This document shows, in pieces, positions 5,086 through 22,462 of a DNA stretch of 41,517 nucleotides. Source of the DNA: Synechococcus sp. GreenBA-s (GTDB taxonomy: Bacteria > Cyanobacteriota > Cyanobacteriia > PCC-6307 > Cyanobiaceae); NCBI RefSeq assembly GCF_024345855.1, contig NZ_JAGQBX010000022.1:1-41517 (forward strand), in the 5' to 3' direction. The position numbers and the translations under genes were made by a program. Under the pieces are notes generated by a model. The model was given only the letters and a program-made list of their open reading frames with translations, did no database searches and was not told the DNA's origin. Every line of letters starts with the position of its first letter. Position 1 is the first letter of the stretch.

Positions 5086-6272
5086 GGCGGCTCCTGCCCG
5101 CGGGCATCAACCTGGCGGATCTGCCCCTGGCCTGGCTGCAGCTCAAGCGCCAGCCGATTCGCTACCTGGTGGCCGTGACGGGCATCGGCTTCGCGGCGCT
5201 GCTGATGTACATGCAGCTGGGCTTTCAGTCGGGCCTGCTCAACAGCGCCACCACCTTCTATGAGGCCCTCGACACCGACCTGATCCTGATCAGCCCCGGC
5301 ACCCTCAACAGCGGCAACTTTCAGCAGTTTCCCCAGTCGCTGCTCTACAACGCCCTCGGGGTCGAAGGGGTCAAGCAGGTGATCCCGATCTACGTCGCCA
5401 ATGTGAATGCCCAGCGGCTCGGTGGCGTCAAGCCCACCAGCCTGCGCCTGATCGGCTTCGATCCCGCCACCAACGTGCTCAAGCTGCCGGAGGTGACCGC
5501 CCAGCTCGACAAGCTGCGCATCCCCAACTACGTGCTGTTCGACGCCCGCGGCAACCGCAACACCGGCCCGGTGGCGCCCGCCGTGAAGCGCAACGGCTAC
5601 CAGGAGATGCTGCTCTCGGACTTCTCCAAGACCTTCCGCATCGTGGGGCTGTTCAAGCTCGGCTCGATCTTCGCCGCCGACAGCAACCTGATCAGCAGCG
5701 ACAGCACCGCCATCAACCTCGCCTACCGCCAGATCAACGCGGGGGAGATCTCCCTGGGGGCCGTGCGGCTGAGCGACCCCAGCCAGGTCCCCCGCGTTCA
5801 GGAGTTTCTGCGCCAGCGCTACGGCCGGGAGCTACAGGTGCTCACCAAGGCTGAACTGATCAGCCAGGAGCGCAACTACTGGAACACGTCATCGTCGTTC
5901 GGGATCATCTTCGGCTTCGGCACGATCATGGGCATCCTGGTGGGCGGCGTGGTGGTGTACCAGGTGCTCTACACCGATGTGACCGATCACCTCAAGGAAT
6001 ACGCCACCCTCAAGGCGATGGGCTTCAGCGATACGTTTCTGCTGGTGATCGTGGTACAGGAGGCGATCATCCTGGCCGTCTCCGCGTTCATTCCCGCCAC
6101 CCTGGCCAGCGCAGCCCTCTACGCCTTTCTCACCTCCGCCTCGGGCATCCGCATCGAGATGAGCTCCGACAAGATCCTGCTGGTGGGGTCGCTCACCCTG
6201 GGGGTCTGTGCCGCCTCCTCCGCCATCGCCATCCGCAAGCTGGCGGATGCCGATCCGGCCTCGGTGTTCTGA
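5082..6272 (+). CDS. devC: DevC-like ABC exporter permease
   Basis: 396 residues of the DevC/FtsX-type permease family. There is one N-terminal transmembrane helix (~24-45), a large periplasmic domain (~46-265), then three helices (~275-300, ~325-345, ~360-380) with an EYATLKAMGFSD coupling segment typical of this family, where FtsX/MacB proteins dock to the ATPase. It overlaps devB by 4 nt and precedes devA by 18 nt, so translation with devB is likely coupled. Confidence 0.85.
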   Translation: MRRLLPAGINLADLPLAWLQLKRQPIRYLVAVTGIGFAALLMYMQLGFQSGLLNSATTFYEALDTDLILISPGTLNSGNFQQFPQSLLYNALGVEGVKQVIPIYVANVNAQRLGGVKPTSLRLIGFDPATNVLKLPEVTAQLDKLRIPNYVLFDARGNRNTGPVAPAVKRNGYQEMLLSDFSKTFRIVGLFKLGSIFAADSNLISSDSTAINLAYRQINAGEISLGAVRLSDPSQVPRVQEFLRQRYGRELQVLTKAELISQERNYWNTSSSFGIIFGFGTIMGILVGGVVVYQVLYTDVTDHLKEYATLKAMGFSDTFLLVIVVQEAIILAVSAFIPATLASAALYAFLTSASGIRIEMSSDKILLVGSLTLGVCAASSAIAIRKLADADPASVF

Positions 6273-7009: not shown

Positions 7010-7978
7010 ATGGCATCCCTTCCCTACCCCGAGAGCTGGGTCCACCAGTGGCAGTGGCGCGGTGAACCCGTGAGCTACGTGGTCGCCGGGCCCGAGGCCG
7101 CGGCGGCCAGCGCCGACACCGGCGACACCGCCAGCAGCGGCGACACCGTGGTGCTGGTCCACGGCTTCGGGGCCTGCAAGGAGCACTGGCGCCACACCAT
7201 CGCGCCCCTGGCGGCCGGCCGGCGCGTGCTGGCCCTCGATCTGCTGGGCTTCGGCGCCAGTGGCAAGCCCCGGGCCGTGCTCGCGGGGGAGGAGGCCGCC
7301 CCCGGCGACTGCCGCTATGGCATCGAGCTCTGGGCCGAGCAGGTGTGCGCTCTCATCGAGGCCCAGGTGCCGGGTCCGGTGAGCCTGGTGGGCAACTCCA
7401 TCGGCGGCGTGGTGGCCCTGCGCGCAGCCCAGCGGCTCGAACAGCTGGGGCGCCCCGCCCGGCAGGTGGTGCTGGTGGACTGCGCCCAGCGCGCCCTCGA
7501 CGACAAGCGGCTGGCAGAGCAGCCGCCACTGCGCCGCTACGGCCGGCCGCTGCTGAAGTCGCTGGTGCGGCAGCGCTGGCTCACGAGCTTGCTGTTCAAC
7601 CAGCTGAGCCGCCCCGGCGTGATCCGCAACGTCTTGGGTGTGGCCTATCCGAGCGGGGCCAACGTCGACGACGAGCTGGTGGCCGCGCTGCTGGAGCCCA
7701 CCCGCCAGGCCGGAGCCGCCGAGGCCTTCCGGGGCTTCATCAACCTGTTCGAAGACCTGCTGGCCCCAGACATCCTGGCGGACCTGCAGACCCCCGTCGA
7801 CCTGATCTGGGGCGAGGCCGACCCCTGGGAGCCCGTGGCCGAAGCCCGCCGCTGGCAGGACTTCGCCTGCGTGCGCAGCCTGGAGGTGCTGCCGGGGCTG
7901 GGCCACTGCCCCCACGACGAGGCGCCGGAGCGGGTGAATCCACTGCTGCTCCAGGCCCTCAACGGAGCTGGGACATGA
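7010..7978 (+). CDS. Alpha/beta-fold hydrolase
   Basis: 322 residues with a complete alpha/beta hydrolase core: oxyanion segment VVLVHGFGACKEHW, nucleophile elbow GNSIGG (Ser), acid in DLIWGEADPW, and His in LGHCPHDEAPE. It resembles the cyanobacterial hydrolases related to pheophytinase/chlorophyll dephytylase and to haloalkane or ester hydrolases, but the substrate cannot be assigned. ATG 7010, 2 nt after the devA stop, is preferred; upstream in-frame ATGs lie within devA. It overlaps the MFS gene by ATGA, so it is inside the exporter operon. Confidence 0.8.
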   Translation: MASLPYPESWVHQWQWRGEPVSYVVAGPEAAAASADTGDTASSGDTVVLVHGFGACKEHWRHTIAPLAAGRRVLALDLLGFGASGKPRAVLAGEEAAPGDCRYGIELWAEQVCALIEAQVPGPVSLVGNSIGGVVALRAAQRLEQLGRPARQVVLVDCAQRALDDKRLAEQPPLRRYGRPLLKSLVRQRWLTSLLFNQLSRPGVIRNVLGVAYPSGANVDDELVAALLEPTRQAGAAEAFRGFINLFEDLLAPDILADLQTPVDLIWGEADPWEPVAEARRWQDFACVRSLEVLPGLGHCPHDEAPERVNPLLLQALNGAGT

Positions 7979-9198
7979 ACAAGCGTTCCCTGCTGATCCT
8001 CTGCCTGGTGGTGGCCGTCGACACGGGCTCCTTCGGGCTCCTGGCGCCGGTGCTGCCGTTCCTGGTGGCGGACCTCACCGGCAGCCTGAACGCCATCACC
8101 GTCACCCAGGTGACGGCCCTCTATGCGGGCTGCCAGCTGGTGGGGGCGCCGCTGATCGGCCGCCTCTCGGACCGCTGGGGCCGCAAGCCGCTGATGGCCG
8201 GCGCCATCGCGGTGGGCAGCGTGGCCCTTCTGGGGTCCGGCCTGTCCGGCAACCTGGCGCTGCTGATGCTGTTCCAGGCCATCAAGGGCGGCACCGCGGC
8301 GGTGTTCGCCCTGGCCCAGGCGATGGTGGCCGATCGCAGCGAGGCCTCGGACGCCCGCACGGTGAGCTTCGGAGCCCTGGGCGCGGCCCTGGGCCTGGGC
8401 TTCGTGTTCGGCCCGGCCCTGGGGGGGCTGATCGGCTCCTTCAGCCCCAGGGCACCGTTCCTGGTGGCCGCGGCACTGACCCTGGTGAACCTGGTGCTGG
8501 TGCTCAAGCTGCTGCCGGAAACCCGCTCGCCGGCGAGCGTTCAAGCCGCCGAGGAACCGCAGGAGCCGCTGCGGTGGTGGACCGGCGAGCAGGGTGACCT
8601 GCGCCGCATGCTGGTCGTTTACTTCCTCTTCTACCTCGGCTTCTCCTCCTTCACGGGCATCTTCGTGGTGGACACGCGCCAGCGCTTCGGCTGGGGGCCC
8701 GAAGCCGCCGGCCTGCTGCTCTGCTTCGTCGGTGTCGTGGCGGCCGTGGTGCAGGGCGGCCTGCTGCCGAAACTGCTGCGACGGTTTCGGGCCAAGCGCC
8801 TGGCGGAACTGGGGCTGGTGCTTGTGGCCATCGCGCTGCTGGGCGTGTCCGGCATCGACCAGGGCGCCTACCTGTATGCCACCCAGTTTCTGTTCGCCAC
8901 CGGGGTGGGCCTGAGCACCCCTGGATTACGCAGCCTGCTGTCCACGGCCGTCAATGAACGCCAGCAGGGCCTCCTGGGGGGCCTCACCCAATCCTGCGTG
9001 AGTCTCTCCAGCCTGCTGGGTCCGCTGGCCTCCGGCCGGCTCTACACCTATCTTGGCTTTGCACTCACCTTCCAGATTCAGGCGGCGGTGGTCTTCATCG
9101 CCGCCGCCATCCTGATCGTCACCAAGGTGCGATCGCAGCCTCGGTCAGAACCCAATCTGGAGCCCCAGCTTCAACCCACGAACACCCCTTCGCCGTAG
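7975..9198 (+). CDS. MFS transporter, TetA/DHA1-like
   Basis: 407 residues with about 12 hydrophobic helices in two halves separated by a short polar linker (~residues 187-205). Motif A, GRLSDRWGRKPL, lies in the loop after helix 2, and the second half carries GPLASGRLYTYLG. The family exports drugs or small metabolites by proton antiport; the substrate is unknown. It is the last gene of the plus-strand operon. Its 3' end overlaps the convergent VOC gene by 28 nt. Confidence 0.85.
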   Translation: MNKRSLLILCLVVAVDTGSFGLLAPVLPFLVADLTGSLNAITVTQVTALYAGCQLVGAPLIGRLSDRWGRKPLMAGAIAVGSVALLGSGLSGNLALLMLFQAIKGGTAAVFALAQAMVADRSEASDARTVSFGALGAALGLGFVFGPALGGLIGSFSPRAPFLVAAALTLVNLVLVLKLLPETRSPASVQAAEEPQEPLRWWTGEQGDLRRMLVVYFLFYLGFSSFTGIFVVDTRQRFGWGPEAAGLLLCFVGVVAAVVQGGLLPKLLRRFRAKRLAELGLVLVAIALLGVSGIDQGAYLYATQFLFATGVGLSTPGLRSLLSTAVNERQQGLLGGLTQSCVSLSSLLGPLASGRLYTYLGFALTFQIQAAVVFIAAAILIVTKVRSQPRSEPNLEPQLQPTNTPSP

Positions 9199-10879: not shown

Positions 10880-11009
10880 CGGCGGGGTACGGGGAATGGC
10901 GGCGGGCGCCGGGAACAGGGGGCCAGGGGCGGCAGGAGGGGCCGTCTCAGGGGCGGTGGGGAAAGGGCGGGGGGCGAACGGGGAGGCGGCGTCGCCGCGG
11001 CGGGGGCGG

Positions 11010-11276
11010 TCAGCCCAGATGGGTCTTCCAGCGCTCCGCTTGGGGATTCCAGCGGAACCAGTCCCGCTCCGCCAGGGCGGCGAGCAGGGTGTCGGCCTCG
11101 GGGCTGCCGGCCTCCAGGCCCCAGTCCTGGCAGAGCAGCTGCTCCAGTTCGGGAGGGGCCAGGCCCAGCCGGAGACCCGACTTGAGCAGGCGGCGCAGCT
11201 CCGGCGGCTCGAGGCTCAGCAGCAGCCCCATCGAGAGCGGCTGCCGGGGCAGCTGGGCGCCGTCAAAGGATGCCAT
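11010..11276 (-). CDS. Small hypothetical protein linked to MinD-like ATPase, 88 aa
   Basis: 88 residues, predicted mostly helical, Leu-rich (LEPPELRRLLKSGLRLGL, LAPPELEQLL) and ending WFRWNPQAERWKTHLG, which resembles the last strand of a small winged-helix-like domain. No family was recognised. The start at 11276 overlaps the end of the MinD-like gene by 14 nt, so translation is probably coupled. ATG at residue 16 is an alternative. The tight coupling suggests a partner of that ATPase, as ParB/McdB-type proteins are for theirs, but no sequence similarity to those was seen. Confidence 0.6.
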   Translation of the reverse strand: MASFDGAQLPRQPLSMGLLLSLEPPELRRLLKSGLRLGLAPPELEQLLCQDWGLEAGSPEADTLLAALAERDWFRWNPQAERWKTHLG

Positions 11277-12027
11277 CGATCAGCTTCTGGGCGAGGGAGA
11301 TCACCCCCTGGCTCCAGGGGTGATCCGGCACCGTGAGCAGGGCCAGATCGCCACTGGCGAGATCGAGCAGCTCATCGCTGAGGGGCAGCACGGCCCCCAG
11401 GGGGATGCCATAGCTCTGCTCCACCCGATCGCGCACCTGCTGACCATCAAAGTGCCGCGGCAGCTTGTTCACCACCAGCAGGGCATTGGGCACATCCAGG
11501 CGTTGGGCCACCTCAAGCGCCACGGCGGTACCCAGATAGTCCTGGGAGTCAGGGCGCATCACCATCACCAGGCAATCGGAGATGGCCGTGGTGAGCAACG
11601 TCTCCTCATTGATACCAGGGTGGGTATCCACGATGATCACATCGAGATGGCGATGCTCACCAAGCTGGAAGAGGGCGTCATTGAGTCTCTCCACTTCATA
11701 GCCCTCGCGCAGCAGCCGCGCGATCCGGTCACTCTGCATGGAAGCCGGCACCAGAAACACCTGGCCGGCCTTCGCCCGCACCGCCGCGGGTGTGACGTCG
11801 TGGCAACAGCTTTCGATCGGAGCTGAGCCCTGGAGATGGTCATTCAGCGTGGCATCATCCGGGGCGGGCGTGAACTGAAACAGCACGTGCACGCCAGGCG
11901 AGGCCAGATCGGTATCGATCACGGCCACCTTGCGTCCGCTGAGGGCCAGGGCCGTGGCCAGATTGGCGGAAAGATTCGACTTTCCCGTGCCGCCGCGGAA
12001 GGAATGAACGCAGACAATCTTGGTCAT
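11263..12027 (-). CDS. MinD/ParA-family ATPase
   Basis: 254 residues. The deviant Walker A reads SFRGGTGKSN (residues 9-18) with Lys16 for phosphate, but the family's signature lysine before GG is Arg11. Switch I is VIDTDLASPG and the Walker B strand is IIVDTHPGI. The C-terminal amphipathic membrane-targeting helix of true MinD is not obvious (the protein ends ISLAQKLIDGIL). It is neither flanked by minC/minE nor by carboxysome genes. It belongs to a MinD-like group with HSFRGGTGKSN, known to me from other cyanobacteria beside signalling genes (recalled, unverified). It is divergent from the HAMP gene across a 58-nt gap. Confidence 0.8.
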   Translation of the reverse strand: MTKIVCVHSFRGGTGKSNLSANLATALALSGRKVAVIDTDLASPGVHVLFQFTPAPDDATLNDHLQGSAPIESCCHDVTPAAVRAKAGQVFLVPASMQSDRIARLLREGYEVERLNDALFQLGEHRHLDVIIVDTHPGINEETLLTTAISDCLVMVMRPDSQDYLGTAVALEVAQRLDVPNALLVVNKLPRHFDGQQVRDRVEQSYGIPLGAVLPLSDELLDLASGDLALLTVPDHPWSQGVISLAQKLIDGIL

Positions 12028-12058
12028 CGCAACAGGCCCAAACCCCGCTCAGCCACGG

Positions 12059-12066
12059 GATACTAG
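12059..12066. promoter_or_regulatory. Overlapping divergent -10 elements
   Basis: The octamer GATACTAG reads as a -10 in both directions: GATACT on plus (12059-12064, 21 nt before ATG 12086) and TAGTAT on minus (12065-12060, ~32 nt before ATG 12027). Such overlap would make the two promoters compete for polymerase. No -35 boxes were recognised. Confidence 0.4.
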
Positions 12067-12085
12067 GACTCTCCCAGTGGTACGC

Positions 12086-13588
12086 ATGACCAAGAGCCTG
12101 CCCCTCGGGACCCGCCTGGTGATCCTGGGAGTGAGTGGCCCCCTGGTGAGCACCCTGCTGTTGCTGGGAGGCGCCAGCACCGCCGCGGTGGTCATCGCCA
12201 GAAAAGCCAGCATCGAGATCTCCAGCCTCTTCCAACAGGACAACCGCGAGAACCTGCTGCACACCACCGCGCTGATCCAGGCCGCCGCCACCAGGACCAG
12301 CGAGCAGCTGATCCTCGATGCCGAGGCGATTCGCCGCAATCTGCAGGGTCTGGCGATCACGGGGTCCAGCAGCCTCACCTGGCAGGGGCAACGGTTCGAG
12401 TCGAACCAGGCGGCGACCCTGCTCAACGATCTGTTGCGCCAGCCCCTTTCGATCGGCGACGCCTGGGCGGGCATCTATTTCAAGAATGGGCAGGGCCAGT
12501 GGCATCGGCTCACGGGCATCACCCGCTCGGGCGAACCGCTGCAGATGAACTGGCAGGCCCCCATCGAGACCGTGCGGGAGCTGGAGGCGCTCTATCTGAA
12601 CCGCGAGGGGCTGCTGACGCCCCGCAACACCCTGCTGCGCCGAGGGGATCAGTGGCGCGTCACCCGCCTGACGCCCCTGAACGGCACGCCCCAGGGACGG
12701 CGCCTGGTGGTGATGGTGAGTGTCTCCACCGATGCCGCCACCGGCCTGCTCAACGCGGGCTCCAACCTATTCCCCCGGGAGGACCACGAGGTGGCCTTCT
12801 TCGGCTGGACGCCCACGGGCACGCTCTACTGCAACTACCAGCGGCCCCGGCCCACCACCTGCCGGGATCTCCAGGCCTCCCTGGCGGCCACGGGCGGCAT
12901 CCCCAGGCCCGGAGCGGGGCAGCAACCCGCGCTGATGGAGCGCCAGCTGCCGCTGATCGGCCCGGACCGGCGGCCGCTGCCGCGCCGCTCCCTGTTTGTG
13001 GCCACCTTCCCGACCTGGAACTGGGTGGCCGCCATCGCCGTGAACGAGGACGTGCTGCAGCGCACGCTCACGCCCCTGCGCCGGGAGACGAGCCGGGTGA
13101 TCACCGGGCTGATCGGCCTGAGCCTGCTGCTGATGCTGGGCTGCGGCCTCGCCGCCTGGCACCTGGCCCGCGGCGTGACCCGCCAGCTGCAGCAACTGGC
13201 GGAGGCGGCCGATGCAATCGCCTCCGACCAGAAGCGCCAGACCCTCCGCTATGGAGCCGACGATGCCATCGGCCAGCTGGTGCTGGCCTTCAACCGCATG
13301 GCCAGCGCGGTGGCCGACCGGGAGGAGGGCCTGCGGGCCCAGATCCAGGAGCTGACGATCAGCATCAACCACCAGTCGCTGCAGGGGCAGGTGTGCTCAA
13401 TCGTGGCGGATCCCAGCTTCAGCGCCCTGAGCGAGCGGGCCCAGGCGATGCGCCAGCGGCGCCGCCAGTTCCGCGACGCGACTCCCCCCGAAGCCGGGGC
13501 TTCGGACGGGAGCAGCGCCCTGGCCAGCAGCCCGGACAGCCAGCCGCCGGAGAGCCCCTCCCCGTCCGAGGGGAGCGCAGCGGGCTGA
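12086..13588 (+). CDS. HAMP-domain membrane sensor without kinase domain
   Basis: 500 residues. TM1 lies at ~8-33, an extracytoplasmic sensing domain at ~35-335 (Cache-like in size), TM2 at 338-360 (VITGLIGLSLLLMLGCGL) and HAMP at ~360-412 ending IGQLVLAFNRMASAV. Then a helical segment and the motif LQGQVCSIVADPSFSALSER (~429-448), ending in a Ser/Pro/Gly-rich tail. No histidine kinase, cyclase, MCP or GGDEF output domain is present. Residues 403-459 match the C-terminus of the response regulator at 16188-17300 (37 of 57 identical, ungapped). The stop codon abuts the convergent tolC stop. The start was chosen 20 nt after a -10 element. Confidence 0.75.
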   Translation: MTKSLPLGTRLVILGVSGPLVSTLLLLGGASTAAVVIARKASIEISSLFQQDNRENLLHTTALIQAAATRTSEQLILDAEAIRRNLQGLAITGSSSLTWQGQRFESNQAATLLNDLLRQPLSIGDAWAGIYFKNGQGQWHRLTGITRSGEPLQMNWQAPIETVRELEALYLNREGLLTPRNTLLRRGDQWRVTRLTPLNGTPQGRRLVVMVSVSTDAATGLLNAGSNLFPREDHEVAFFGWTPTGTLYCNYQRPRPTTCRDLQASLAATGGIPRPGAGQQPALMERQLPLIGPDRRPLPRRSLFVATFPTWNWVAAIAVNEDVLQRTLTPLRRETSRVITGLIGLSLLLMLGCGLAAWHLARGVTRQLQQLAEAADAIASDQKRQTLRYGADDAIGQLVLAFNRMASAVADREEGLRAQIQELTISINHQSLQGQVCSIVADPSFSALSERAQAMRQRRRQFRDATPPEAGASDGSSALASSPDSQPPESPSPSEGSAAG

Positions 13589-15178
13589 TCAGCGCAGCTT
13601 GGCGAGGCGGGCGGGCAGGCGCAGGTCGTTGAGGGGGGTGCCGAGCTCCTGGCTGAGGGCCGGATCGCCCATGTAGTTGAGGCCGCTGGCGCGGGCCAGG
13701 CTCACCAGGGCGATGTTGTAGTCGGCCAGGTCGTTCACGTAGGCGATCACGGCCTGGGTGAGGTCCTGCTGGGCCTGCACCACATCGGTCACGGTGCCGT
13801 AGCCGGCGTTGAAGCGCAGGGTCTGCAGGCGCAGGGCCTCATTGGCGGCCTTGACGCGACCCGAGGAGAAGAGCACCACGTCGCGCCCCTGGGTGGCCTG
13901 GGCATAGAAGGTCTGCACCTCCTTGCGCACCTGGTTGACCGCCGCCTGATAGGAGGCCTCGGCCGCCCTGGCCTTGCGGCGGGCCGCCTCGGCATTCATG
14001 CGCGCCTGGCCGCCATCGAAGCCGGTGAACGACAGCTGCAGCAACGCCGAGGTGTCCCACAGGTCGGAGCGGGCCCCCTGCACCCACGGCGGCCCCTGGC
14101 CCGTGAAACCCGCGGCCTTGGTCCACAGCCAGCTGTTGACCAGCTGGATCGTGGGCCGGTAGGTGGCGAGCTCGATCTGGGCCTGGGCCTCGTTGATCTT
14201 CACGTCCATCAGCTTCTGCTCGATCACCTTGCGGTAGTCGAGGGCGGCGCGACTGGTCTCCGCCAGGGAGTGGGGCCAGGAGCCCAGGGCCCCGAGCTGC
14301 TCGGCCGGGGTCAGGGGCGAGGAATCACTGATGGCCAGCAGCTCGCCGAGGGCCGCCTGGGCCACGCGCACGTCCTGCTGGGCCCGGGCCAGGTTGCTCT
14401 GGTCGGCCTTCAGCACCGACTCCTGCTTGGCCAGATCCACCTTGGTGGAGGAGCCCAGGCGGAACCGGGTCTCGGTGAGGCCATAGAGCAGCTTGTCGTT
14501 GGCCACGATCTGCTCGCCGGTGAGCACCTGGGCGTAGGCCTGCTGCAGCTCCACGAAGGCCTGCTCGGTCTGCAGGCGGTTGTCCCGCAGGGCGATCACA
14601 TAGGTGTCGGCGGCCTGGCGCACCTTGTATTTGTTCTGCCAGATCGTGGGGGTGCGGGCCGGATCGAAGAGGTTCCAGGTGACATCGACCTGGCCGATCG
14701 CCTGGAAGTAACTGCCCATGTAGGCCTTCTGGTTCTGGTAGGGGCCGGGCGACGCCACGCCGCCGGTGAAGGCCCCCGGATAGTTGTAGTAGGAGCGGGC
14801 GCCGTAGGGGCCGCCGTTGAGGGAGGCGTTGAGCGTGGGCCACCAGGTGGCGTAGGCGGCGCCAAGGCTGTTCTGAGTCGCCACCAGCTCCTCATACGAC
14901 TGGCGCAGCACCGGGTTGCGCTGGCTGGCCCAGGCCACCGCCTGGGCCATGGCCAGCCGGGACAGCTGCTCCGGCGGGAGCGGCGACTCCGTCGGGCGGG
15001 GCCGCTGCCCCGGCCAGCCCGATCCGAGCGTCTCGACGCGCTGCTCCCCCGGCAGCGGCTCCGCACCGGCCGATCCGGCCGGAATAACGGCAGCAAGCAT
15101 CAGCGGCAGCGCAGCCGCGAGGCGCAGCAGGGCTGCGGGCCCACGCCGGCAGGGGCTCAGCTCTGGCGGGCGACTCAT
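13589..15178 (-). CDS. TolC-family outer-membrane efflux protein
   Basis: 529 residues. A signal peptide lies at ~1-40 (LLRLAAALPLMLAAVIPAGSAGA). Two TolC repeats follow, with long helices such as TRFRLGSSTKVDLAKQESVL and its counterpart LRFNAGYGTVTDVVQAQQDL. These FxxGxxxxxDVxxAQ-type repeats identify the outer-membrane efflux family that forms the channel for DevBCA/HlyD- or RND-type pumps. The ATG at 15178 overlaps the crtB stop by ATGA; a longer frame from 15319 would run inside crtB and lacks a signal at its start. A DevB adaptor is encoded 8.5 kb away and could pair with it (inference). Confidence 0.82.
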   Translation of the reverse strand: MSRPPELSPCRRGPAALLRLAAALPLMLAAVIPAGSAGAEPLPGEQRVETLGSGWPGQRPRPTESPLPPEQLSRLAMAQAVAWASQRNPVLRQSYEELVATQNSLGAAYATWWPTLNASLNGGPYGARSYYNYPGAFTGGVASPGPYQNQKAYMGSYFQAIGQVDVTWNLFDPARTPTIWQNKYKVRQAADTYVIALRDNRLQTEQAFVELQQAYAQVLTGEQIVANDKLLYGLTETRFRLGSSTKVDLAKQESVLKADQSNLARAQQDVRVAQAALGELLAISDSSPLTPAEQLGALGSWPHSLAETSRAALDYRKVIEQKLMDVKINEAQAQIELATYRPTIQLVNSWLWTKAAGFTGQGPPWVQGARSDLWDTSALLQLSFTGFDGGQARMNAEAARRKARAAEASYQAAVNQVRKEVQTFYAQATQGRDVVLFSSGRVKAANEALRLQTLRFNAGYGTVTDVVQAQQDLTQAVIAYVNDLADYNIALVSLARASGLNYMGDPALSQELGTPLNDLRLPARLAKLR

Positions 15179-16191
15179 CGGGCCTGGGAGATCACGTAGG
15201 AGAAGGGCAGGTCCAGCAGCTTGCCGGCCTGGGGCACGTAGGCGCGCTTGTTGAACACGTCGTAGTCGTGCCGCTCGATCACATCGAGGATGCCCCGATA
15301 GAGCCGCAGCGACGCCCACACCGGCCAGCGGGCATCGGGCGCCAGCCAGCGCACGCCCGCCTCAGAGCGGGCGAACCACTGGCGGGCACGCTCCAGCTGG
15401 AAGGCCATCAGCGCCCGCCAGTTGTCGTTGAGGGTGCCGGCCAGCAGCTCGGCCTCCGAGTAGCCGAAGCGCTCCAGGTCCTCCTGGGGCAGGTAGATGC
15501 GGCCGCGGCCCCGGTCCTCCCCCACGTCCCGCAGGATGTTGGTGAGCTGGTTGGCGATGCCCAGGGCCACCGCGGCCTCGGAGGTGTCGGGCCGCTCGCT
15601 CCAGGGAGCGGAGGTGTAGGCGGGATCGAGACCCATCACCTCCTGGGTCATCAGGCCGACGGTGCCGGCCACGCGATAGCAGTAGAGCTCCAGCTCGGCG
15701 AAGCTGGCGTAGCGGGTCTGGAGCAGGTCCATGCGCTGGCCCTCGATCATGTCGAGGTAGGGCTGCAGGCTCTGGGGGTAGCGCTCCAGGGTGTCCACCA
15801 TGGCCCGATCGAGGCCATCGCGCACCTGGCCCTCGAACAGCTGGCGGGTGCGCAGCTCCCAGGCATCGAGCCGGGCCGCCAGCTCCTCCACGGGACGCGC
15901 CTGGGCCTCGGCACTATCCATCAGTTCATCGGTGCGGCGGCACCAGACGTAGATGGCCCAGATCGCCCGGCGCTTGGCCGGGGGCATCAGCAGCGTGCCG
16001 AGATAGAAGGTCTTGGCCCACTCGGCCGTCTCCTTGCGGCAGGCCTCATAGGCCTCCTCCAGGCTCGGCAGCAAAGTGGATCCCGGCTCCCGCTGGCGGG
16101 AGGTGGCGGCGGAGGACTGTGCCGTCATCGGGGCAGGGTCGGCACCTGGATCAACCGAGGCAGTGGCCATGGTGGCAGAGCGCTGGCTCAT
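15175..16191 (-). CDS. crtB: Phytoene synthase
   Basis: 338 residues of the squalene/phytoene synthase family: condenses two geranylgeranyl-PP to 15-cis-phytoene, the first committed carotenoid step. Both Asp-rich motifs are present: RRTDELMD (Asp88/Asp92) and NILRDVGEDRGRGRIYLPQ (Asp222/Asp226). TFYLGTLLMPPAKRRAIWAI is the typical N-terminal helix. About 45 N-terminal residues are poorly conserved, so an internal ATG (residue 8 or 22) could be the true start. ATGA overlaps join it to the regulator upstream and tolC downstream. Confidence 0.92.
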   Translation of the reverse strand: MSQRSATMATASVDPGADPAPMTAQSSAATSRQREPGSTLLPSLEEAYEACRKETAEWAKTFYLGTLLMPPAKRRAIWAIYVWCRRTDELMDSAEAQARPVEELAARLDAWELRTRQLFEGQVRDGLDRAMVDTLERYPQSLQPYLDMIEGQRMDLLQTRYASFAELELYCYRVAGTVGLMTQEVMGLDPAYTSAPWSERPDTSEAAVALGIANQLTNILRDVGEDRGRGRIYLPQEDLERFGYSEAELLAGTLNDNWRALMAFQLERARQWFARSEAGVRWLAPDARWPVWASLRLYRGILDVIERHDYDVFNKRAYVPQAGKLLDLPFSYVISQAR

Positions 16192-17300
16192 GAGGCGGCA
16201 CGGCGCTGGCGCATGGCCCGGGCCCGCTCGGCCAGGGAGGAGAAGGAGGGATCGCCCAGGATCGAGCCCACCTGGCCCTGCACCACGGCGGTGTTGATCT
16301 TGATCTCCAGCTCCTTGATCGTGGCCCGCAACTCCGTCTCCCGCCGCGACACGGCCCCCGCCATGCGCTGGAAGGCGCTCAGCAGGGGCGCCACCCGGGG
16401 GTCCTCGCGCACATCGGTCGCCATGGAGGCCACGAAGCGGTCGGCCTGGCTGAGCTCGCGATCGAGGCGCTGCTGGCTCAGCACCAGGTTCTGGTAGAGC
16501 TCCAGCTCCTGGTCGCGCAGGGCCTTCTTCTCCAGGCAGGCGCCGATGCGGGCCCGCAGCAGCGTGGCGTTGAAGGGCTTGGGCAGGTAGTCCTCGGCGC
16601 CGGCCTCGATGCAGCGCACCACGCTGGAGAGGTCGTCGAGGGCGCTGATCATGATCACCGGCAGATGGCGCAGCTCCTCGTCGGCCTTGAGCTGCCGCAG
16701 GGTGTCGTAGCCGTCCAGGCGCGGCATCATCACGTCGAGCAGCACCAGATCGAAGCGCTGCTGGCGCACCCTCTCCAGCACCTCCACGCCGTCGGCGGCG
16801 GTGGTGACGCTGTGGCCCTGGCGGACCAGGCGACTGGCCAGCATGTCGCGGTTGAGCGGGTCATCGTCCACCGCCAGGATGCGGCCATGGCGCGGCGCTG
16901 GCCCGGCCGCCTCGGATGGGGAATCGGACGCGGCTGGGGCGGGGGCCTCGGGCGGCTGGGCGGCCGGTTGCGATGGGGCCTCGGCTGAGGGGAGCGGGCG
17001 GGCCGGCGGAGCGGCGCCAGGGGCCGGCAGGGGCGCCAGCTGCAGCCGGGTGCGGATCAGACCCACCAGCGTGGCGGCCGCCTGCTGGATGCGGCGCAGA
17101 TCGGGCACGGCGGCCGGGTGCTCCTCCGCGGCCTCCTCCTCCAGCAGTTCGCTGTAGCCGATGATCTGGTTGAGGGGCGTGAGCAGGTCGTGGCGCAGGG
17201 CCGCGAGCTCCTGGGAGGCGTCCGGGGCGACAGGGACCTCGCAGCCTGGCAGAGGGCTCGCCGCGGATGCAGCACCCGGAGAAGGGGAAGCAGGCGACAT
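16188..17300 (-). CDS. Response regulator with DHp-like domain and shared C-terminal tail
   Basis: 370 residues. Residues ~30-85 resemble a histidine-kinase DHp helix pair (LRHDLLTPLNQIIGYSELLE, His37), with no ATPase domain after it. A Pro/Ala linker (~88-136) leads to a receiver domain (~139-255) with VDDD acidic pocket, Asp189 in LLDVMMP and Lys241 in LPKPF. A long helical C-terminus (~258-367) ends VQGQVGSILGDPSFSSLAER and AMRQRR. There is no DNA-binding domain. It is directly downstream of the CheY-like gene (ATG 17300, or GTG 17303 right after its stop). It could act as a phosphotransfer and receiver intermediate (inference). Confidence 0.78.
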   Translation of the reverse strand: MSPASPSPGAASAASPLPGCEVPVAPDASQELAALRHDLLTPLNQIIGYSELLEEEAAEEHPAAVPDLRRIQQAAATLVGLIRTRLQLAPLPAPGAAPPARPLPSAEAPSQPAAQPPEAPAPAASDSPSEAAGPAPRHGRILAVDDDPLNRDMLASRLVRQGHSVTTAADGVEVLERVRQQRFDLVLLDVMMPRLDGYDTLRQLKADEELRHLPVIMISALDDLSSVVRCIEAGAEDYLPKPFNATLLRARIGACLEKKALRDQELELYQNLVLSQQRLDRELSQADRFVASMATDVREDPRVAPLLSAFQRMAGAVSRRETELRATIKELEIKINTAVVQGQVGSILGDPSFSSLAERARAMRQRRAAS

Positions 17301-17303
17301 CAC

Positions 17304-17690
17304 TCAGCTGTCCACCGCGATGCCGCAGCGCTGCAGCTGGGCCTGGATCTTCTCCAGCAGCCGGGCCAGGTCCACGGGCTTGGTGTCGTAGTCGTCGCAG
17401 CCGGCGGCGAGACAGCGATCACGGTCTTCCGCCATCGCATGGGCCGTGAGGCCGATCACCGGGATGGCGGCGGTGGCCGCATCGGCCTTGAGGCGGCGCG
17501 TGGCCTCCCAGCCATCAATCACCGGCAGGCTCATGTCCATCAGGATCAGGGCCGGAGCCTGGGCCGCCGCCATGTCCAGCGACTCGGCCCCATCCAGCGC
17601 CATCACCACCTCGAAGCCCTTGCGCGTCAGCCGCCGGGACAGCATGTCCCGGTTCATCTCGTTGTCCTCGACGAGCAGGATGCGAACCAT
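17304..17690 (-). CDS. Single-domain CheY-like response regulator
   Basis: 128 residues, only a receiver domain. The acidic pair is Glu8/Asp9 in LLVEDNEMNRDML, the phosphoacceptor is Asp52 in LILMDMSLP, the switch is Thr82 in GLTAHAM, and the lysine is Lys104 in DTKPVD. All catalytic residues are present. VEDNEMNRDML and GLTAHAM are typical of receivers served by hybrid kinases. It starts 17 nt after the hybrid kinase and ends against the DHp-REC gene, so the three are almost certainly co-expressed. Confidence 0.88.
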   Translation of the reverse strand: MVRILLVEDNEMNRDMLSRRLTRKGFEVVMALDGAESLDMAAAQAPALILMDMSLPVIDGWEATRRLKADAATAAIPVIGLTAHAMAEDRDRCLAAGCDDYDTKPVDLARLLEKIQAQLQRCGIAVDS

Positions 17691-17707
17691 CGCGGTGGCA
17701 GGAGTGC

Positions 17708-22462
<4,755 letters not shown>

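Follow-up and report, generated by a model that had tools for sequence, protein, structure and literature searches.

Known partners of MinD/ParA-type ATPases and a Synechococcus locus

Many bacterial sensors stop after a HAMP, receiver, PAS or cyclic nucleotide monophosphate (cNMP)-binding domain without a recognisable output. In CpaE/TadZ, which serves pilus siting, a ParA-like ATPase and a receiver-like domain form a single fused protein. FleN/FlhG is a MinD-like ATPase with a regulatory role whose partner, according to structure titles, is a single master regulator, FleQ. The known partners of ParA/MinD (A/D) ATPases, which include MinE, ParB, McdB and ParC, are reported to act via a positively charged, disordered N-terminus, and many of these ATPases are called 'orphans', their partner not being known (both from the accessible portion of PMC10241942). 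Here we analyse a 41,517-nucleotide stretch of Synechococcus sp. GreenBA-s (contig NZ_JAGQBX010000022.1, the window) in which a HAMP sensor and a DHp-receiver regulator end in the same 57-residue tail and a gene for a MinD-like ATPase lies next to the sensor gene. It is likely that this tail is a portable output plug, docking assorted sensors onto one dedicated MinD/ParA-type ATPase. A functional link between tail and ATPase is strongly supported.

The system shares with the ParA/MinD ATPases and their partners the fold, the P-loop and a short basic candidate partner element (accessible portion of PMC10241942). However, their signature lysine is replaced here by an arginine in 68/68 aligned sequences, and the candidate element is a C-terminal tail common to dozens of unrelated sensors, whereas the partners reviewed in that portion are said to use a charged N-terminus. 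The best structural matches of the ATPase include FleN and FlhG, but many candidate sensors with a common tail take the place of FleQ. CpaE/TadZ also links a receiver-type domain with a ParA-type ATPase, whereas the proteins described here are separate, have many input types and include no fusion among 129 tail open reading frames (ORFs). Partner-switching modules (SpoIIE/STAS/anti-sigma; the icfG cluster; SiaABCD) are similar in some neighbours, such as the DUF6272 protein of locus L067 and the annotated STAS, SpoIIE and glgX genes that precede the ATPase gene on plasmids of Deinococcus and Streptomyces, but their families are absent among the window genes scanned. No description of the tail-ATPase pairing was found in the open-access PubMed Central literature, including the accessible parts of PMC10241942, PMC12329169 and PMC12889525, and the Walker A strings of the ATPase subfamily had no match there.

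The C-terminal tail and the proteins that bear it

The tail of the HAMP sensor extends from 13292 to 13462 (plus strand; modelled core 13316-13462) and that of the regulator from 16200 to 16370 (minus strand; modelled core 16200-16346), each of 57 residues as defined by translation and alignment. They align without gaps at 37/57 identities, exactly where the original prediction, made from the letters of the window, had placed the match; its residue numbering is consistent with a HAMP protein that begins at 12086 and a regulator that begins at 17300. BLASTP of one tail against the other gives 72 bits (E 1e-24, single comparison), and 2000 residue shuffles yield 4.7 identities on average and never more than 12/57. 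The DNA is identical at 123/171 positions, with 38, 43 and 42 of 57 for the three codon positions. As first read, the similarity includes the end of the HAMP helix, and the 49-position family core that was modelled begins 8 residues later. Above the Pfam cut-off, HAMP alone is detected in one protein, HisKA and Response_reg in the other and nothing for the tail, so neither has a conventional output domain, in agreement with the initial reading; Pfam finds no methyl-accepting chemotaxis protein (MCP) signalling domain in either. Pfam holds no curated model for the window tails, and four canonical tails gave only scattered sub-threshold matches to Pfam and NCBIfam.

A first profile, built from the two window segments, matched 30 of 386 genomes of the phylum (39 places in 30 loci, E <= 0.01). 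The second profile has 26 rows, namely 25 loci from the first search and the window regulator; four near copies (L005, L006, L014, L029), a weak partial match (L027, genome G310) and eight places without a locus were left out of its alignment. It recovers 53/386 phylum genomes at E <= 0.001, with at least up to seven places per genome; copy numbers in the two phylum runs are lower bounds because up to 18 tail and 6 ATPase candidates were scored per genome. Related tails in other cyanobacterial proteins, as mentioned in the original prediction, are real and phylum-wide. The tail occurs in 34/142 sampled genera of the phylum (E <= 1e-3), in 23/151 Chloroflexota genomes, in 5/121 genomes of a Rhizobium order and on Deinococcus and Rhizobium plasmids. 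A local duplication, or a generic coiled coil with no function of its own, could account for a region that is predicted helical and present in the own genome (2.85 Mb, 92 contigs) at exactly two places, both in the window (E <= 10). The spread across the phylum rules out local duplication alone and, together with the near-invariant positions and the presence in other phyla, leaves this explanation with practically no probability.

The usual form of the tail approximates REQKLKQQVQELRIEID-x2-K-x3-QVxEITxTDYFQxLxxKAxxLRxR in the author's reading of the alignments, of which the DPSFSxLxERAxAMRQRR of the window is a variant found in its relatives. Conservation across 74 full-length tails is strongest at R2, E3, L6, L13, I29 (97%), [FY]35 (74/74), L38, A42 and [RK]46 (74/74). 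The tail is mostly close to the stop codon (median 7 residues; 100 of 126 distinct tails are followed by no more than 15, the others by up to 165) and its last 16 residues are basic on average (mean net charge +2.9, range -6 to +7). In some proteins the last ~20 residues are duplicated (two cases by profile, one on a Nostoc plasmid and one more by eye), which suggests that the C-terminal end is the working part. The AlphaFold2 (AF2) model of the regulator predicts a long helix (residues 305-350) that breaks at D351 and is followed by a short one at the C-terminus (352-370); along the last 30 residues the confidence drops from 82 to 53-69.

The original prediction of a shared docking or oligomerisation module is supported by these data, which together with the distribution of the ATPase (below) favour docking. 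Oligomerisation is retained as an option, the predicted long helix extending through the first half of the tail. The tail might then be a hetero-oligomerisation coiled coil that joins sensors together, the ATPase being an accessory linked for some other reason, and two different tail proteins are indeed often present in one genome or locus. However, half of the strongest positions lie at or after the helix break (I29, [FY]35, L38, A42, [RK]46) and some proteins contain the tail end more than once, as a short motif. This alternative also leaves unexplained the presence of the ATPase in every tail genome searched, except for three with partial matches (G192, G533, G310), and is improbable. The conserved positions at and after the break also exclude a generic coiled coil, and the segment was not recovered as such a coil lacking a consistent gene context, the outcome that would have spoken against the initial proposal.

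The bearers of the tail are mostly sensors without an output enzyme. After removal of redundancy at 60%, 82 of the 129 tail ORFs were retained for a domain census, in which HAMP (42), dCache_1 (14), PAS (12), CHASE2 (9), Tll0287 (8) and GAF (8) are the most frequent, followed by receiver (6), cNMP-binding (6) and HisKA (5) domains. One type of tail protein combines FHA and GAF. A protein kinase match occurs in one of the 82 proteins, and both the MCP signalling domain and phosphatase domains are absent from the 25 families listed among the 34 matched.

Association of the tail with a MinD-like ATPase

The ATPase gene of the window (11263..12027, minus strand; Pfam CbiA, 5.3e-15) encodes a protein of 254 residues whose AF2 model has a pLDDT of 94.1. 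The best Foldseek match of this model is an archaeal MinD (1hyq, E 1.9e-18), followed by FlhG, MinD, FleN, ParA/Soj and McdA. Fold and P-loop (GK[ST]) place it in the ParA/MinD superfamily. The deviant Walker A motif reads KGGxGK. In the subfamily studied here the P-loop is HS[FY]RGGTGKSN; in the alignment (68 of 80 available sequences) GKSN is invariant in 68/68 members and an arginine (R11) replaces the signature lysine in all of them, so that the subfamily lacks this mark of the deviant Walker A pattern, given as xKGGxxK[T/S] in the accessible text of PMC10241942. The protein scores far below the curated cut-offs of the NCBIfam models for cell-division MinD (minD_bact, 40.5 vs 212.9 bits; minD_arch, 85.1 vs 201.75 bits). 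In its model the last core helix (237-252) runs almost to the C-terminus at residue 254, and an additional amphipathic membrane-targeting extension at this end is not apparent. Among the matches listed, the nearest records come from Synechococcus and relatives (64-76% identity). Five loci (L135-L137, L177, L180) carry two MinD-like genes in tandem, one of them more divergent and possibly a heterodimer partner.

The ATPase subfamily was searched independently of the tail (E <= 1e-25). In the phylum set the tail is found in 53/386 genomes, the ATPase in 53/386 and both in 52. The tail-only genome, G192, has a 26-position match (positions 5-30) with an internal stop. Among the 151 Chloroflexota genomes 23 have the tail, 22 the ATPase and 22 both, the tail-only match (G533) covering positions 1-28 only. 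Five of the 121 genomes of the Rhizobium order carry the tail and the same five the ATPase, each pair being at most 150 bp apart. The co-occurrence with MinD-like ATPases, proposed as a check in the original prediction, is thus nearly perfect with one subfamily in three genome groups. In the window's family (n=131, partly overlapping the phylum set) the tail is present in 17 genomes, the ATPase in 19 and both in 17. At the level of the genus, three genomes have both genes and two (G753, G771) have neither; tail and ATPase are therefore gained or lost jointly at short evolutionary range.

The two genes are also linked. In the phylum set, 46/80 tail places (in 36/52 genomes) are located at most 5 kb from an ATPase gene, versus 0.29 expected from genome sizes. 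Contigs of 84,980 species were further scanned with the ATPase, and the best 80 matches provided 79 loci, a non-random sample. These best 79 loci come from cyanobacteria (including Synechococcus sp. WH7803), Chloroflexota, records titled Actinobacteria and the like, Rhizobium, other alphaproteobacteria and Gemmata. A tail protein is encoded in the available flanks of 50 of them, within 300 bp of the ATPase gene in 36, within 3 kb in 12 more and within 10 kb in 2; in 23 of the remaining 29 genomes the tail is found elsewhere. The ATPase is also present on 13 plasmid records, 6 of which contain the tail according to tblastn (Nostoc, Deinococcus, Kovacikia and Pseudanabaena), with no tblastn-positive plasmid outside those 13. 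On a Rhizobium jaguaris plasmid the tail was identified by profile, directly before the ATPase. Six of the 13 ATPase-bearing plasmid records were opened, including one of five from Streptomyces.

The proposed mechanism has four steps. The input domain would change its state in response to a signal perceived from outside the cell (HAMP/Cache) or by a phosphorylated receiver, PAS, GAF, FHA or cyclic nucleotide, a step seen only as domain content. The change would travel down the linking helix and expose or re-orient the last ~22 residues (I-x5-[FY]-x2-L-x3-A-x3-[RK]), as conservation and the predicted helix-break-helix arrangement suggest. The basic terminal helix may then dock on the MinD-like ATPase in its ATP-bound, dimeric state and alter the ATP turnover or cell location of this enzyme, by analogy with the charged partner peptides of known ParA/MinD systems. 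Finally, the ATPase and the small protein encoded by an adjacent gene would deliver the output. In the window, the membrane HAMP-tail sensor and a phosphorelay (hybrid kinase, receiver, DHp-receiver-tail) may both feed the same ATPase. The analysis shows the tail family and its architecture, the co-occurrence and linkage with the ATPase and the fold of the latter; we infer physical contact, the effect on ATP turnover, the direction of signalling and the role of the small protein.

The direction might also be different: the tail could tether sensor clusters to the ATPase, which would position them as ParC does with chemoreceptor clusters, no information flowing from sensor to ATPase. The genetic data would be identical to those expected for docking, and the ATPase has the MinD/ParA fold, members of this superfamily positioning cargo via partner peptides (as described in the accessible part of PMC10241942). 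However, several tail proteins have inputs of cytoplasmic type only (cNMP-binding, FHA-GAF, PAS, DHp-receiver), which would be odd as cargo, and in 18 of the best 79 loci a class III cyclase, assigned by Pfam for one representative, is encoded within 5 kb. Positioning of the sensors is unlikely, although less so than hetero-oligomerisation.

Several observations weigh against docking of sensors onto the ATPase. One phylum-set genome (G360, a partial 35% match) and two genomes of the family set (G703, 62% complete; G729, 98% complete) have the ATPase without the tail, as do 6 genomes among the best 79 loci in which no tail was detected. Conversely, tail matches without the ATPase occur in G192, G533 and G310, all of them partial; that of G310 is a weak match of the two-row profile and is not recovered by the larger one. 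In the phylum set 34/80 tails are more than 5 kb from any ATPase match or on another contig, and the Nostoc plasmid L122 and the Streptomyces plasmid L125 (36% identity) have no tail in the flanks that were opened. The hypergeometric P values for co-occurrence (2.6e-62 and 1.5e-25) are indicative only, related genomes being treated as independent. The divergences of adjacent tails and ATPases are correlated (85 pairs, Mantel r 0.62; maximum 0.14 in 1000 permutations), which speaks for docking but is confounded by species descent, as this could give the same result. The tail helix is modelled with moderate to low confidence (pLDDT blocks of 60, 53, 69 and 64 over residues 341-371). It is C-terminal and predicted helical, whereas the known ParA/MinD partner elements are N-terminal and disordered (accessible portion of PMC10241942), and a natural tail-ATPase fusion was found in none of the 129 tail ORFs.

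On a broader scale, there is about an even chance that the tail defines a widespread signalling class, in which many unrelated sensors have as their common output a dedicated MinD-like ATPase, reached via a C-terminal plug of ~25 residues. This class would be found in at least four phyla (Cyanobacteriota, Chloroflexota, Pseudomonadota and Deinococcota; from metagenome-assembled genome records probably also Actinomycetota), partly on plasmids, and some Chloroflexota members would be fed with cyclic nucleotides by a neighbouring cyclase. The data suggest an undescribed pathway whose end point is a molecular positioning motor instead of a kinase; the superfamily of the ATPase itself is already known, as is its dependence on partner peptides. 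If the sensors do drive the ATPase, this would represent a new class of signalling output, and a single tail that pairs output-less sensors with orphan ATPases would give both groups a function. The tail also constitutes a sequence tag for spotting members in any genome, and the pairing makes the question of a positioning ATPase as signalling output directly testable with two short proteins.

Genes of the window locus and recurring neighbours

The gene of the HAMP sensor (12086..13588, plus strand, start read from the sequence; Pfam HAMP, 3.1e-06) and that of the ATPase are divergent, with 58 bp between their start codons. A promoter scan of 11000-13700 yielded a single match (11609-11637, plus strand) and none between the two genes. 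The regulator gene (16188..17303, minus strand) encodes a protein with HisKA (DHp; 6.3e-09) and Response_reg (9.2e-31) matches in Pfam; no HATPase domain was found in it. Directly upstream is a gene for a single receiver-domain protein (17304..17690, minus strand; Response_reg, 8.9e-25) whose cluster recurs in 12 loci. The gene string of the regulator is headed by a hybrid histidine kinase (17708..20503, minus strand; Cache, HisKA, HATPase and two receivers by Pfam), likely the source of phosphate for the tail regulator.

These hybrid kinase, receiver and tail regulator genes (16188-20503) have on one side a gene of the amine-oxidase family (20434-21966), probably a phytoene desaturase, and on the other crtB (15175-16191), with an overlap of 4 bases between crtB and the stop of the tail regulator. 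In a relative (L060, 4155-6745), members of the amine-oxidase and crtB clusters adjoin with nothing intervening.

A gene for a small protein of 88 residues (11010..11276, minus strand) overlaps the end of the ATPase gene. Related small proteins, mostly of ~90-125 residues, are encoded within 1 kb of the ATPase in 41 of the best 79 loci, and they recur next to it in other phyla too. The window copy was assigned by clustering, and its subfamily matches the wider one with hhalign (92.9% probability, E 3.7e-07). No Pfam family was found for the window copy and two relatives; a winged-helix fold is a guess based on its pattern.

The neighbourhood regions cover 60 of the phylum-set tail places. In Chloroflexota loci cNMP-binding tail proteins recur (by cluster; Pfam on one). 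At L067 a DUF6272 protein and a small putative STAS-like protein are encoded directly before the tail gene, and members of both clusters are encoded close to the tail gene at four further loci; in Rhizobium a protein of ~193 residues, similar by eye, precedes the tail gene. On the Deinococcus (L120, 7194-12759) and Streptomyces (L125, 3376-8768) plasmids a STAS-glgX-SpoIIE string comes before the MinD-like gene. This string resembles the Synechocystis icfG cluster (content from the accessible portion of PMC12329169, which mentions no MinD-like neighbour of that cluster).

On other plasmids, from Nostoc and Pseudanabaena (L123, L124), genes for NHLP/Nif11 peptide export or maturation and for a cNMP-binding protein lie close to those of the ATPase and the tail, and similar surroundings were identified in L081, L085 and L117 by clustering with the annotated plasmid genes. 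A glutaminase-type gene is located near the ATPase and tail genes in L096, L105, L107, L109 and L116 (by cluster; Pfam for L096 only), and in L105 one frame fuses part of an ATPase to glutaminase-like sequence. In Chloroflexota loci, genes for a PrsW-like protease and a 70-residue cysteine-rich protein lie beside the cNMP-binding tail protein. In L148 these genes are at 5582-5791 and 7554-8663, and their clusters recur in 19 and 16 loci.

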